Source of the DNA: Tardiphaga sp.
Lineage (GTDB): Bacteria > Pseudomonadota > Alphaproteobacteria > Rhizobiales > Xanthobacteraceae
DNA length: 6,615 nt
Reading direction: 5' to 3'
NCBI GenBank assembly: GCA_028290765.1
Contig: JAQGJF010000538.1
Coordinates: 1 to 6,615, forward strand
Below the pieces are notes generated by a model that did no database searches, was not told where the DNA came from, and worked only from the letters and a program-made list of their open reading frames with translations. A program made the translations under genes and the position numbers. Positions 2,460 through 6,615 of this stretch are shown here, in pieces. Within the stretch, counting starts at the first letter, position 1. Every line of letters starts with the position of its first letter.

Positions 2460-3053
2460 ATGGGGAAAGCAAGAGAAGAGCAGACAGACCGCCGCATCCC
2501 CCGCACCAGGGGAATGCTGCAGCAGGCCTTGATGTCGCTGATCTTGAAGAAGGACTACGAGACGATCACCATCCAGGACATCTGTGATGCAGCCAATGTC
2601 GGTCGATCGACATTTTACGCCCACTACACGGGCAAGGATGATCTGAAGCGAAGCGGCTTCGAGCACTTGCGCAAGGAACTCGTCGATCGGCAGCGGAAGG
2701 CTTTGGCAATTCCGGGAGACATTCGGAACCGACGTCTGGGCTTCAGCCTGACCATGTTCGAACACGCCCGTGACCACCGCGAGTTCCATCGGGCGTTGGT
2801 TAGCAGTCGTGGCGGTGCCGTAGCCCTCTGCAGCATTCGCCAAATCATTTCAGACCTGGTGCGCGATGACCTTGCGGCAACCTGCGACAGTTCGCCGGAC
2901 GCCATTCCGCGCGAAATCACGGTCCAATATATCGTTGGCGCCTACATGGCCGTGCTGACCTGGTGGCTCGATGGCGGAGCGAAGCTGCCGCCGCAACGGA
3001 TTGATGAGATGTTTCGGCGCCTGGTGATCCAAGGCATCATGCCGCAACCATGA
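2460..3053 (+). CDS. TetR/AcrR family transcriptional regulator
   Basis: A 197-residue, normal-length TetR-type DNA-binding protein. The N-terminal three-helix domain spans about 14-62. RTRGMLQQALMSLILKKDYETITIQDICDAANVGRSTFYAHYTGKDDL shows the family signature, with the helix-turn-helix at about 37-56 (TIQDICDAANVGRSTFYAHY) and the family's YxHYxxKDDL-type end. The remaining 130 residues are helical and would form the ligand-binding and dimer domain. WWLDGG (about 163-168) near the C-terminus is typical of one TetR C-terminal subgroup. The ligand cannot be predicted. The gene diverges from the two-gene membrane operon with 191 nt between starts, so repression of that operon and of itself is the simplest hypothesis. 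The ATG at 2460 has only a weak GGGA site about 6 nt upstream, but no better in-frame start is visible. It is convergent with dadA downstream. Confidence 0.88.
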   Translation: MGKAREEQTDRRIPRTRGMLQQALMSLILKKDYETITIQDICDAANVGRSTFYAHYTGKDDLKRSGFEHLRKELVDRQRKALAIPGDIRNRRLGFSLTMFEHARDHREFHRALVSSRGGAVALCSIRQIISDLVRDDLAATCDSSPDAIPREITVQYIVGAYMAVLTWWLDGGAKLPPQRIDEMFRRLVIQGIMPQP

Positions 3054-3076: not shown

Positions 3077-3139
3077 CTACAGCGCTTTCCGGTCATACTG
3101 GATCACTCAGTGATCCAATATGACCGGAAAGCGCCGTAG
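3077..3139 (-). repeat. Long hairpin repeat, 30-bp arms
   Basis: The arms 3077-3106 and 3110-3139 are inverted copies around a 3-nt centre (3107-3109), with 28 of 30 positions exactly complementary. The two exceptions (3098/3118 and 3081/3135) are C-A and A-C mismatches if read as plus-strand RNA, but G-U wobbles if read as minus-strand RNA. The hairpin is therefore fully paired only in the dadA-sense transcript. It sits between the convergent TetR and dadA genes, where it could end transcription from either side or protect the dadA mRNA 3' end. There is no U-tract. The core (GCGCTTTCCGGTCATA) resembles intergenic repeats I recall from Bradyrhizobium-like genomes. Confidence 0.7.
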
Positions 3140-3151
3140 ATTCTGGTGTTG

Positions 3152-3199
3152 GCGCATGTCCTTGTCGGCGAACCGGATCCACTTCGCCGGGACATGCGC
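3152..3199 (-). repeat. Second hairpin of the twin-hairpin repeat, abutting the dadA stop
   Basis: GCGCATGTCC (3152-3161) pairs with GGACATGCGC (3190-3199), and CGGCGAA (3166-3172) pairs with TTCGCCG (3183-3189), leaving a 4-nt TTGT bulge on one side and a 10-nt loop (CCGGATCCAC). The last base of the stem is also the last base of the dadA TAG stop. The plan (CATG..CC, TTGT, C-GAA, CCGG, TTC, GGACATG) matches a palindromic element scattered through Rhizobiales genomes, remembered rather than searched. It probably travels as one unit with the preceding 30-bp hairpin. Confidence 0.65.
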
Positions 3200-4446
3200 T
3201 AGGCGGATGCGTTTGCAAAAGCGCTTGCGTCGACGAGCCGAGCGACGATCTGTGAGGTGGCGGCCGACAGCGTCCAGCCGAGATGCCCGTGCCCGGTGTT
3301 GTAGAAAACACCGGGAACGCGGCCCGCGCTGACGCGCGGCATCATGTTCGGCATCATCGGCCGAAGTCCCGCCCACGGCACGATTTTCGAGGTGTCAATG
3401 CCAGGGAAATTGCATCTCACCCAATCCGTCAGCGGTTGAATGCGGTCCGCGCGGATATCCCGGTTGAAGCCGTTGAATTCGGCGGTGCCGGCAACACGAA
3501 AGCGGTCGTGTCCCAGGCGACTGGTCACGATCTTCGCCGCTTCGTCGAGCAGGCTGACCTGCGGCGATGCGGCCTGGCTCTCCCGTGTCTCGAGATTCGC
3601 AGTGATCGAATAGCCTTTCACCGGATAGATATTGACACGGTCGCCCAATAATCCGGCCAGGCGACGGCTTTCGACTCCCGCGCAGATGACGAGCTTGTCG
3701 AACGCCATTGCTGTGCGCTGAGGTTCCGCGTGACGCTCCGAAGCCCATGTGACTGACAGCCTGCCGCCGGCGGTCTCGACGTTCTCGACATTCACGTCGT
3801 GGACGAAAGCGGCGCCCTTCCGCAGGCAGGCGGCGGCCAGCCCGCGGGTGAATTTGTGAATGTCTCCGGTTGAGTCGGACGGCGTGTAGAAGCCTCCGTA
3901 ATATTTCCCCTGCAGTGTCGGCTCGATCTTTTGAATCTCCTGTGGCGTCACGGCCCGTCGTTCCAGTCCGGCCTTCTGCAGCAGTGAATTGACGCGTTCT
4001 CCCGATTGAAAACTCGCTCGGTCGTGACAGATATGAAGAATCCCCCTTCGCTCCAAGTCGAAGGCAATGCTCTCCTTTTCCGCGATCCTGAACAGTTCCT
4101 GCCGGGCCTCGAGTGCCAATCGGACGGTTTGGGCAGTGTTGGCCCGGTAGTTTTTGATATTGCCGACGAACTCGCCAATCCATGAATATTTGTGCCAGCT
4201 CGGCGATGGGTTCATGAGAAGCGGCGCATCGCGCTTGAACATCCAGCGCAGGCCCTTGAATACCGTCGATGTGTTGTTCCAGACCTCGGCGTTGCTTGCC
4301 GACAATTGTCCACCATTGGCAAACGACGTCTCCATCGCCGGATAGCGATGGCGGTCCAGGACGGTCACCTGGTAACCGCGTTCCAACAGCGCATAGGCCG
4401 TGGTCACGCCGGTGATTCCGGCGCCGATGATTGCAATATGAGTCAT
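3199..4446 (-). CDS. dadA: FAD-dependent D-amino acid dehydrogenase (DadA type)
   Basis: A 415-residue flavoprotein, close to the 432 of E. coli DadA. By family it oxidatively deaminates D-amino acids (classically D-alanine to pyruvate and ammonia) at the inner face of the cytoplasmic membrane, giving electrons to the quinone pool. Seen: the N-terminal FAD Rossmann motif IIGAGITGV with GxGxxG at 8-13, then the DadA signatures ETSFANGGQLS, KGLRWMFKRDAPLL, YPVKGYSIT, LLDEAAKIVTSRL and RVAGTAEFNGFN. The C-terminal FAD motif NTGHGHLGWTLS is at 383-394. GLRPMMPNMMPRVSAG replaces the more usual PMTPDG.PVIG segment, marking a divergent subgroup. The ATG at 4446 fits the flavin motif; longer in-frame reading would translate the riboswitch. 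A GGGAG lies about 11 nt upstream. It is preceded by a tandem glycine riboswitch, so glycine is the likely signal. A glycine or broad-specificity substrate is possible. No racemase or Lrp gene is adjacent. Confidence 0.88.
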   Translation of the reverse strand: MTHIAIIGAGITGVTTAYALLERGYQVTVLDRHRYPAMETSFANGGQLSASNAEVWNNTSTVFKGLRWMFKRDAPLLMNPSPSWHKYSWIGEFVGNIKNYRANTAQTVRLALEARQELFRIAEKESIAFDLERRGILHICHDRASFQSGERVNSLLQKAGLERRAVTPQEIQKIEPTLQGKYYGGFYTPSDSTGDIHKFTRGLAAACLRKGAAFVHDVNVENVETAGGRLSVTWASERHAEPQRTAMAFDKLVICAGVESRRLAGLLGDRVNIYPVKGYSITANLETRESQAASPQVSLLDEAAKIVTSRLGHDRFRVAGTAEFNGFNRDIRADRIQPLTDWVRCNFPGIDTSKIVPWAGLRPMMPNMMPRVSAGRVPGVFYNTGHGHLGWTLSAATSQIVARLVDASAFANASA

Positions 4447-4467
4447 TTTCGTCAGGGCTCCCGTTGA

Positions 4468-4515
4468 ACAGATGGGCGCAATCACGTCGCTCGACGCGTT
4501 GCACACCCCATCTGT
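4468..4515 (-). promoter_or_regulatory. Hairpin between riboswitch and dadA, candidate expression platform
   Basis: ACAGATGGG (4468-4476) and CCCATCTGT (4507-4515) are perfect 9-bp inverted arms, with smaller inner pairing possible (GCAA/TTGC, CGTC/GACG). On the dadA-sense RNA the first arm begins within the 3' flank of aptamer 2 (GUGACAGA), so folding of the hairpin could compete with the outer pairing of the aptamer. The second arm ends 21 nt before the ATG, just before the GGGAG ribosome site. No U-run follows, so control of translation or of a Rho-type stop is more likely than intrinsic termination. Confidence 0.5.
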
Positions 4516-4701
4516 CACGGTACCTGAGAGTTTCATCCCACCGCGCGAAAGCGCGATGCGAAGGCCCCTTCGGTGGGCACCACCGGTGCCTCTCTCCAGA
4601 TTGTCTTCGACGACGCGGTCCTGCTTGCCTGAGAGTTTCCGGGGTGGTTGCTCCGTCGGCGTCGGGGCCAAAGCTCAGCCCCGATCTCTCCCGCATCGTC
4701 G
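4511..4701 (-). ncRNA. Tandem glycine riboswitch (two aptamers) upstream of dadA
   Basis: Both aptamers of a glycine (gcvT-type) riboswitch can be read on the minus strand. Aptamer 1 (about 4617-4695) runs from CGGGAGAGA through GCCGACGGAGCAACC to GGAAACTCTCAGGCAA. Aptamer 2 (about 4513-4602) runs from CTGGAGAGAGGC through CACCGAAGGGGCC and a GC-rich hairpin (CGCGC..GCGCG) to GAAACTCTCAGGTACC. The repeated AAACTCTCAGG and the CCGA[AC]GG.GC cores are hallmarks of the class. The leader CGACGATGCGG (4691-4701) can pair with the linker CCGCGTCGTCG (4608-4618) over 11 positions including one G-U, corresponding to the P0 leader-linker helix known to form a kink-turn in tandem glycine riboswitches. 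Glycine binding normally switches downstream genes on. Here the only downstream gene is dadA. Confidence 0.93.
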
Positions 4702-4734
4702 TATCGGGCGCAATGTCGACAAAATGCGCTAGCT

Positions 4735-4797: not shown

Positions 4798-5553
4798 TCA
4801 TGCCTTGGCGACAGCGCGGCTGAGCCATTCCGCGAAGCGGGTCGGCCCAAGCCGCGGCTGACCGCGGGGCGTCAGCGATTTGTCATCCAGCTCGGAGCCG
4901 AAATAGCGGGCGTGGACATCAGAGATCACGCGGCGCTTGTCGCCTTTAGCGGCCAGGAACTGCATCGCCAGCATGTCGAGACCGATCAACTCGGGACCGG
5001 CCACTTCGACGGTGCCGTTCAGCGGCGCGCCGACCGCGAGTTCGGCCAGCGTGGCGGCGACATCGTCGGACGCGATCGGCTGGAACAGCGCCGGCGACAG
5101 CCGGATCGCATCGCCGTCGGCACCCGACTGGACGATGCCGTCGGCGAATTCGAAGAACTGCGTCGCATGCAGGATCGTATAAGGCCTACCGGAGGCCTTG
5201 ATGAGATCTTCCTGGGCCTTCTTGGCGCGGAAATAGCCGATCTGCGGCATGTCGCCGGTGCCGACCACCGACAGCGCCAGATGATGTTCGACCCCGGCGG
5301 CGGCTTCCGCGGCGAGCAGGTTGCGGCCGGAGGTCTCGAAAAACTTCAAGGCGGCGCTGTCCTCGAAGGACGGCGAGTTCGCCACGTCAACGACGACCTG
5401 CGCGCCCGACAGCGCCTCGGCCAGGCCCTCACGCGTAATGGTGTTGACGCCCGAGGCGGGCGACGCCGCAACAGCCTCATGGCCCTGCTGACGCAGCCGG
5501 TTCACTACGTTCTTCCCGATCAGGCCGCTGCCTCCGATGACGACGATCTTCAT
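4798..5553 (-). CDS. Atypical SDR / NmrA-like NAD(P)-binding protein
   Basis: A 251-residue Rossmann-fold protein. It begins MKIVVIGGSGLIGKNVV, with the dinucleotide-binding motif GGSGLIG at 7-13 (G7xxG10xxG13, the pattern of extended and atypical SDRs). A YxxxK pair (Y107, K111 in GYFRAK) follows LSVVG (94-98), and RPYTILHATQFFEF (123-136) is typical of NmrA/SDR_a5-like proteins. Such proteins act as oxidoreductases or as redox-sensing NAD(P) binders; neither substrate nor cofactor preference can be assigned. The ATG at 5553 is chosen because AGGAG sits 6 nt upstream and the Rossmann fold starts at once. The frame stays open to 5751, but that extension looks like untranslated DNA. The gene diverges from the winged-helix regulator with 245 nt between starts. 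Downstream it runs into the dadA promoter region, and I see no strong terminator there. Confidence 0.85.
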   Translation of the reverse strand: MKIVVIGGSGLIGKNVVNRLRQQGHEAVAASPASGVNTITREGLAEALSGAQVVVDVANSPSFEDSAALKFFETSGRNLLAAEAAAGVEHHLALSVVGTGDMPQIGYFRAKKAQEDLIKASGRPYTILHATQFFEFADGIVQSGADGDAIRLSPALFQPIASDDVAATLAELAVGAPLNGTVEVAGPELIGLDMLAMQFLAAKGDKRRVISDVHARYFGSELDDKSLTPRGQPRLGPTRFAEWLSRAVAKA

Positions 5554-5756: not shown

Positions 5757-5798
5757 GCCTGCCCGACGCATGCGCGCGGGGTTTTGCGGAGCGCCGAG

Positions 5799-6615
5799 GT
5801 GCGATTTCTGTTCGAATCCTATGTGCTCGACCCCGACCGGCGGGAGCTGACGCGGGGAGACGAGGCGATCGCCGTCACGCCGCAGGTCTTCGACCTGCTG
5901 CTGCATCTGGTGCAGAACCGTGAGCACGTCGTCGACAAGGACGGGCTGCTCGACGCGGTATGGGCCGGACGGATCGTCTCCGAATCGACCCTGACCAGTC
6001 ATATCAATGCGGTGCGCAAGGCGATCGGCGACAGCGGCAAGGAACAGCGGCTGATCCGAACCGTCGCCCGCAAGGGCTTCCGATTCGTCGGCGATGTCCG
6101 GGAGGCGCCGTCCGTCGAGGGATTCGGTTCCTTGACGGCCGCGGCCAGTCCATCGAACGAAATCCCCGCAACCGCGCTGGCGCTGCCCGAAAAACCCTCC
6201 ATCGCGGTGCTGCCGTTCCTGAATCTGAGCGGCGATCCCGGGCAGGAATACTTCACCGACGGCGTTGTCGAAGACATCATTGCGGCGATGTCGCGTATTC
6301 GCTGGCTGTTCGTCATCGCGCGCAATTCGAGCTTCACCTACAAGGGCCGCGCCGTCGACGTGAAGCAGGTGAGCCGCGAGCTGGGGGTGCGCTACGTGCT
6401 GGAAGGCAGCGTGCGCCGGGCCGCAAACCGCGTCCGCATCACCGGACAGCTGATCGATGCGACCACCGGGGCGCATCTGTGGGCCGAGCGTTTCGAAAGC
6501 ACGCTCGACGATATTTTCGAGCTGCAGGACCAGGTCGCCGCCAGCGTCGTCGGCGCGATCGCGCCGCAGCTCGAGCGCGCCGAGATCGAGCGGGCACAGC
6601 GCAAGCCGACCGAAA
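5799..6615 (+). CDS. Winged-helix regulator with TolB/FlgO-like domain (3' end outside window)
   Basis: The 272 visible residues start at a GTG preceded 7 nt earlier by GGAG. Residues 1-100 are an OmpR/CadC-type winged helix (Trans_reg_C): TPQVFDLLLHLVQNREHVVDK (27-47), VWAGRIVSESTLTSHINAVRKAIGD (54-78) as recognition region, and IRTVARKGFRFVGDV (86-100) as wing. A low-complexity linker (101-131) holds no membrane helix, so unlike CadC and ToxR it is predicted to be cytosolic. Residues 132-250 (KPSIAVLPFLNLSGDPGQEYFTDG..., GVRYVLEGSVRR, GAHLWAERFE) form the TolB/FlgO-like domain found N-terminal to TPR repeats in many rhizobial regulators and adenylate-cyclase relatives. TPR repeats would be expected beyond the right edge. 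The DNA target and signal are unknown; the divergent SDR gene is the obvious candidate target. An ATG at 5770 is out of frame and not used. Confidence 0.85.
   Translation, partial: MRFLFESYVLDPDRRELTRGDEAIAVTPQVFDLLLHLVQNREHVVDKDGLLDAVWAGRIVSESTLTSHINAVRKAIGDSGKEQRLIRTVARKGFRFVGDVREAPSVEGFGSLTAAASPSNEIPATALALPEKPSIAVLPFLNLSGDPGQEYFTDGVVEDIIAAMSRIRWLFVIARNSSFTYKGRAVDVKQVSRELGVRYVLEGSVRRAANRVRITGQLIDATTGAHLWAERFESTLDDIFELQDQVAASVVGAIAPQLERAEIERAQRKPTE

Follow-up and report, generated by a model that had tools for sequence, protein, structure and literature searches.

The locus and its tandem glycine riboswitch

The window, i.e. the whole stretch of 6,615 nucleotides of Tardiphaga sp. DNA analysed here, carries a tandem glycine riboswitch on its minus strand, a strand assignment absent from the earlier note on this DNA, and the aptamer pair is located just upstream of a gene on the same strand whose ATG lies at position 4446, leaving a gap of about 55 nt. 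The features of the window are the following:

3-497, intradiol-dioxygenase-like protein
563-1471, FkbM-type methyltransferase
2460-3053, plus strand, TetR-type gene, convergent with the enzyme gene
3077..3139, 31-base inverted repeat between the convergent ends of the TetR-type and enzyme genes, arms 94% complementary and separated by 1 base
3199..4446, minus strand, PRK12409/NF009074 FAD enzyme, annotated as D-amino acid dehydrogenase, glycine oxidation proposed (NF009074 716.6 bits, PF01266 238.7 bits)
4452..4476, minus strand, 3' strand of the predicted anti-aptamer helix, spanning the ribosome-binding site (RNAduplex and leader fold)
4458..4462, minus strand, GGGAG, the likely Shine-Dalgarno sequence, 11 nt ahead of the ATG (read in the sequence)
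4502..4609, minus strand, glycine aptamer 2, whose P3 arm is long (RF00504 52.6 bits, E 1.3e-10, stretch searched alone)
4507..4526, minus strand, 3' portion of aptamer 2 with CAGG, the junction and the P1 strand, contributing the 5' strand of the predicted anti-aptamer helix (-26.3 kcal/mol in RNAduplex, partner 4476-4452)
4523..4530, minus strand, CTCTCAGG core of aptamer 2 (read in the sequence)
4606..4703, minus strand, glycine aptamer 1 (RF00504 61.6 bits, E 2.5e-11, model positions 1-94, not cut)
4798-5553, NmrA-like NAD(P)-binding protein
5784-6614, regulator with a Trans_reg_C domain

In a search with the Rfam covariance model RF00504, which the earlier note had proposed as a check, both aptamers were found to exceed the gathering score of 32 bits (61.6 and 52.6 bits, respectively), and its statement that both aptamer cores are intact can thus be upheld. 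The two matches overlap by 4 bases, and the linker between the aptamers must therefore be very short. Aptamer 2, which has a 16-base insertion in its P3 arm when compared to the model, was listed neither in the RF00504 scan of the whole window nor in that of 401 bases, probably because of the filters of the program in conjunction with this insertion. Surveys based on RF00504 with default filters may likewise undercount tandem forms with long P3 arms. The element is a real, intact and otherwise ordinary tandem glycine riboswitch, and the sensing of glycine itself is predicted from its sequence.

The inverted repeat at 3077-3139 may act as a two-way terminator or may be a (dispersed) repeat element, and the neighbours at 3-497, 563-1471, 4798-5553 and 5784-6614 have no evident connection to glycine.

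The downstream gene codes for a flavoenzyme of the PRK12409 subfamily

The gene at 3199..4446 codes for an FAD enzyme of 415 residues with a DAO domain (PF01266), and no further minus-strand gene could be recognised before the convergent TetR-type gene. The earlier reading of the locus, according to which the tandem glycine riboswitch precedes a single DadA-like gene and not gcvTHP, is in agreement with these data. With respect to protein families, the enzyme passes the curated cut-off of the NF009074/PRK12409 model by a wide margin (716.6 bits vs. 494) and lies below the cut-offs of the classical DadA model PRK00711 (329.8 bits vs. 383) as well as of the ThiO glycine oxidase model TIGR02352 (134 bits vs. 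250.8).

The window protein also contains the segment GLRPMMPNMMPRV, which conforms to the pattern GLRPM.P.[ML][ML]P. This pattern is present in 112 of 113 proteins of the subfamily (30/30 in the set found by profile; see below) and in none of 28 more distant homologues used as controls, of which 19 show GLRP[MAV]TP instead. The altered segment had been taken as support for a divergent specificity; it does mark a distinct subfamily, but it says nothing about the substrate, and rather than being a peculiarity of the window protein it is a signature common to the subfamily as a whole.

Amongst solved chains, those three that match best by sequence are all glycine oxidases (7cyx, 6j38 and 4ysh). 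A structure predicted from 26 sequences (mean pLDDT 79.3) matched glycine oxidases first and sarcosine oxidases at similar scores, and this comparison did not tell the two apart. Since sarcosine oxidases and an iminodiacetate oxidase are found beside the glycine oxidases amongst the fold matches, and since close homologues reside on 63 plasmid records, many of them from soil or root bacteria, the enzyme might alternatively act on an N-substituted glycine such as sarcosine, iminodiacetate or the like, with glycine being sensed as the product or a related metabolite. This alternative is considered unlikely, as a glycine switch in front of a glycine-consuming enzyme would be the simpler arrangement and as the Cupriavidus necator gene dadA6 is called a glycine oxidase in the accessible part of PMC11879842.

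The riboswitch is nearly fixed to the PRK12409 subfamily

A survey of orthologues for the same leader, as had been suggested in the earlier note, was based on 113 genes, comprising the best 80 of at least 582 confirmed relatives from genome contigs, the window itself, L002 and L003 from plasmids, and the top 30 PRK12409 genes by score from a separate profile survey of Burkholderiaceae. The peptide patterns used for the set of relatives include LRPMMP[NSD]M, and this set consequently leans towards that signature. Two CTCTCAGG cores were found upstream of 111 of the 113 genes, with the second core located 67-118 nt before the start; in particular, two exact cores precede 78 of the best 80 of the at least 582 relatives, and two cores precede all 30 genes of the profile survey. 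At the loci L030 and L047 no aptamer was detected upstream, neither as CTCTCAGG cores nor with RF00504.

These observations were extended by whole-genome searches with RF00504. In 42 genomes reached from 42 loci among the best 80 of at least 582 relatives, aptamers were found at the PRK12409 gene in 41 (two aptamers in 40, one at L024), and in 16 of the 42 the PRK12409 leader was the only glycine riboswitch found, where other sites may be missed as the candidates were mostly scored in part. Of 398 Burkholderiaceae genomes, 137 carry a PRK12409 gene over the cut-off. Amongst these, 30 genomes were picked from those having lower-scoring full-length PRK12409 genes, and aptamers were located at the gene in 29 of them (two aptamers in 27, one in 2), with the leader being the only glycine riboswitch found in 5 of the 30. 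In genome G191 the search revealed no aptamer at the PRK12409 gene, and its riboswitch sits elsewhere.

With respect to more distant homologues, 25 of 96 alphaproteobacterial genomes have a match at 1e-60, and only the centre genome G001 exceeds the NF009074 cut-off. Amongst the matches listed, RF00504 was absent from the flanks of all 28 weaker alphaproteobacterial homologues (219-465 bits), in searches that covered flanks of about 1.5 kb or less at the gathering cut-off with fast filters, a setting under which single aptamers can be lost, as the window illustrates; the nearest control (L086, 465 bits) had no RF00504 match either. The survey thus yields two cores at 111 of 113 subfamily genes and no leader at 28 weaker homologues, and in the alpha-, beta- and gammaproteobacterial loci examined the leader is nearly fixed to the PRK12409 subfamily.

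When presence of the leader is mapped as a label on a tree of 141 proteins, 3 changes are required, in contrast to 27.4 in shuffles, where the tree was computed by a quick method without bootstrap and contains long branches among the controls. This would fit a history in which the leader was gained once and lost twice. In the 141-protein tree, members from Alpha- and Betaproteobacteria are interleaved and, of the 63 plasmid records with a close homologue mentioned above, 24 are typed as conjugative; therefore, leader and gene seem to move together.

Additional copies were encountered in two genomes. In G001, a second PRK12409-like copy, split over two frames, lies behind a tandem riboswitch of its own (L116 and L110), and C. 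necator N-1 (G468; L126, L159/L124) carries PRK12409 twice, each time with riboswitch cores, on a 2.68-Mb contig and on plasmid pBB1.

A predicted helix links aptamer 2 to the ribosome-binding site

In the minimum-energy fold of the window leader, the outer helix of aptamer 1 is kept and aptamer 2 is broken, with its 3' strand being paired around GGGAG in a helix that is similar to the one predicted by RNAduplex but slightly longer. Of the five bases of the likely Shine-Dalgarno sequence, two are paired in the predicted helix and three lie in an internal loop.

This pairing was compared across 98 distinct leaders drawn from 108 having a start codon at the assigned place. The 3' strand of aptamer 2 pairs more strongly with the last 30 nt of its own leader (-16.5 kcal/mol) than with swapped partners (-13.1 kcal/mol) or shuffled sequence (-10.7 kcal/mol), a difference between own and swapped partners that was reached in 0/5000 permutations, and at the median the own partner ranks 19th of 98. 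The result persists after thinning to 41 and to 27 representatives (0/10,000 permutations each), the latter having less than 72% protein identity and pairing at -14.84 kcal/mol with their own as compared to -12.27 kcal/mol with swapped partners, although even the set thinned to 72% protein identity is not wholly free of relatedness. If the comparison is restricted to the junction and the last 20 nt, the own pairing is again the stronger one after thinning. At least three of the five Shine-Dalgarno bases are paired in 66 of the 98 leaders. The covarying helix between aptamer 2 and the region of the ribosome-binding site suggests a translational switch that would be turned on by glycine.

However, both on and off glycine riboswitches exist according to the accessible part of PMC6944388, and the long hairpin could act through Rho, so that glycine might also turn the switch off, or the switch might operate by transcription termination. 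Such a mode of action is rather improbable: no terminator-like site was found in the window leader, the covarying pairing involves the Shine-Dalgarno region, induction would be expected of a catabolic gene, and Proteobacteria are described in that same part of PMC6944388 as preferring translational control.

Gene neighbourhood

A shared operon was rejected on the grounds that neighbour clusters are scattered in place and strand, except among close relatives (Bradyrhizobium loci), as judged by clustering with a crude ORF caller which generates spurious ORFs in GC-rich genomes. Malate synthase G is found downstream of the gene in four of 84 loci (L001, L002, L003 and L032), some of the loci being cut short, and all four belong to Phyllobacteriaceae. 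It is annotated as such in L002 and L003, and the L002 copy exceeds the TIGR01345 cut-off. An HbpS-like gene is present nearby in five of the 84 loci and directly downstream in L125, whereas most other PRK12409 copies in these loci have neither a malate synthase G nor an HbpS-like partner. The plain reading of the malate synthase G neighbourhood would be a conversion of glycine to glyoxylate and further to malate.

In L001, located on a Phyllobacterium zundukense plasmid (2928-6368), the gene as well as the downstream malate synthase G are each represented by two overlapping tblastn pieces in an unannotated stretch, and both copies may be broken.

Six other glycine riboswitch sites in five genomes lie ahead of gcvT (four sites, with all four genes exceeding the cut-off of a gcvT model), a permease (one site) and the second, split copy of the PRK12409 gene (one site). 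The permease gene follows a single glycine aptamer in Alcaligenes faecalis (G002, L118), and its product is nearest to a model for D-serine/D-alanine/glycine transporters, with 710.3 bits being below the cut-off of 732.

The Alcaligenes permease can be cited in favour of a second alternative, namely that the enzyme is a true D-amino acid dehydrogenase and that glycine signals peptidoglycan or D-alanine turnover, as the earlier note had also considered. In line with this, NCBIfam and the data sources name the protein accordingly, it is homologous to DadA, and glycine is known to disturb peptidoglycan synthesis. Nevertheless, a role of glycine as such a proxy is very unlikely, since the enzyme stays below the PRK00711 cut-off, since the leader is absent from all 28 weaker, DadA-like homologues, and since none of the annotated plasmid loci read has an amino acid racemase annotated next to the gene. 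The neighbourhood of L003 does contain a gene of the mandelate racemase/muconate lactonizing type, which belongs to a superfamily other than that of the amino acid racemases. The other option put forward in the earlier note, that this DadA subgroup uses glycine, is favoured by the tie between leader and PRK12409 as well as by the C. necator member being named a glycine oxidase.

The link to dadA6 of Cupriavidus necator

The primary study behind the statements on a glycine oxidase in C. necator is reportedly that of Claassens 2020. Whether the gene in question belongs to the PRK12409 subfamily was approached by locating, in relatives of strain H16, the sites of the published primers that serve to check the dadA6 deletion. 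Of 30 loci, 18 have the site of the reverse primer, with 1-3 mismatches and oriented towards the PRK12409 gene, from which it lies 1171-1245 nt upstream; in C. necator N-1 (G468) it shows one mismatch. The site of the forward primer is exact only in G463, one of 398 Burkholderiaceae genomes, where it points to a contig end 1031 bases away and where the match to the PRK12409 gene stops 310 bases short of the end of another contig, such that site and gene are separated by a contig break. Beside the forward primer in G463 there is a sequence that reads like livM and that shares 92.7% identity over 409 bases with one directly adjoining the N-1 gene on its downstream side. Neither primer site was present within 5 mismatches in the Cupriavidus loci L123 and L124, with the forward primer matching at 6 mismatches as by chance, and a search of six genomes from the genus to which G123 belongs gave no site for the forward primer. 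On account of the primer sites and the livM-like neighbour, dadA6 of C. necator is with high likelihood the PRK12409 gene. Between the window protein and the chromosomal copy of C. necator N-1, the identity amounts to 62.7%.

In the same region of G463 (contig C166; L122/L160), the forward-primer site is carried by a gene that by eye resembles PAAR genes and adjoins the livM-like sequence.

In the accessible part of PMC11879842, dadA6 was deleted as a glycine oxidase gene, without further improvement in growth rate or yield, and no enzyme assay is reported there for dadA6. A passage on C. necator in PMC12421819 was also counted as support for the glycine reading. As to regulation, the accessible text of PMC11879842 ties no riboswitch to dadA6, and the one riboswitch it mentions is a genome-editing tool; in this respect the known system differs from the locus described here, although the gene is very likely the same.

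Comparison with other glycine riboswitch targets

The element shares with the tandem riboswitches of gcvTHP operons the RF00504 family, the tandem layout and the proposed induction of glycine breakdown. Its target, however, is a single flavoenzyme gene, and the route would be oxidative and independent of glycine cleavage. A glycine riboswitch upstream of the malate synthase gene glcB has been described in SAR11 (PMC2211319 and PMC5069720, as far as accessible), an arrangement said to be exclusive to SAR11 in the part of PMC5069720 available. It resembles the present case in tying glycine sensing to glyoxylate and malate metabolism, given the malate synthase G genes in four of 84 loci, but differs, to judge from those parts of the two papers, in that in loci of the window type the proposed glycine-oxidising gene comes first. 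ThiO, finally, is an FAD enzyme with the DAO fold as well, and the GLRP-type segment of the window protein aligns with solved glycine oxidases; nevertheless, by its TIGR02352 score the window enzyme is not a member of that family.

No report combining glycine riboswitch with D-amino acid dehydrogenase was found in the openly licensed literature. Hits for dadA beside glycine riboswitch concerned only Dickeya dadantii or Dadabacteria and were irrelevant, and where glycine oxidase appears beside glycine riboswitch, thiO is given under TPP riboswitches. The main text, as far as available, of a 2019 survey of 2,998 glycine riboswitches (PMC6944388) contains neither dehydrogenase nor oxidoreductase. 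Twelve glycine-metabolism targets of glycine riboswitches are given in the accessible part of PMC3766115, and the PRK12409 gene may be among them. This is an ordinary riboswitch with an apparently unreported target family, where priority is uncertain and refers to the openly licensed literature.

A proposed self-regulated cassette for glycine oxidation

Taken together, it is highly probable that the tandem glycine riboswitch switches on a flavoenzyme oxidising glycine to glyoxylate and ammonia. In the absence of glycine, the 3' half of aptamer 2 would pair around the Shine-Dalgarno sequence and hinder translation, while upon binding of glycine this strand would be locked into aptamer 2, freeing the Shine-Dalgarno site so that the enzyme could be made. 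The resulting glyoxylate might be converted to malate by malate synthase G, whose gene lies directly downstream in some Phyllobacteriaceae, and glycine would thereby be disposed of or used by an oxidative route, in parallel to the glycine cleavage system.

Since the most likely reaction of the enzyme is the oxidation of glycine to glyoxylate, the database label of D-amino acid dehydrogenase is probably wrong. The PRK12409 subfamily is very likely misnamed and would oxidise glycine, a substrate assignment deduced from sequence comparisons and genomic context. For the family as a whole there is good reason to assume that it represents a dedicated glycine dehydrogenase/oxidase family having its own glycine riboswitch, which moves between proteobacterial classes, on conjugative plasmids amongst others, as a self-regulated cassette and which often provides the only glycine riboswitch found in a host.

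If this holds true, the glycine regulon would, with PRK12409, have a further branch in addition to those of cleavage and transport, the name given to a large annotated family of proteins would turn out to be wrong, and glycine riboswitches would also govern an oxidative route that bypasses the cleavage system. There would be consequences for the engineering of the reductive glycine pathway as well, in which dadA6 was removed because it might be a wasteful sink of glycine, as glycine itself would then switch this sink on. Finally, the PRK12409 subfamily would offer a clean example of a riboswitch that apparently travels with its gene.
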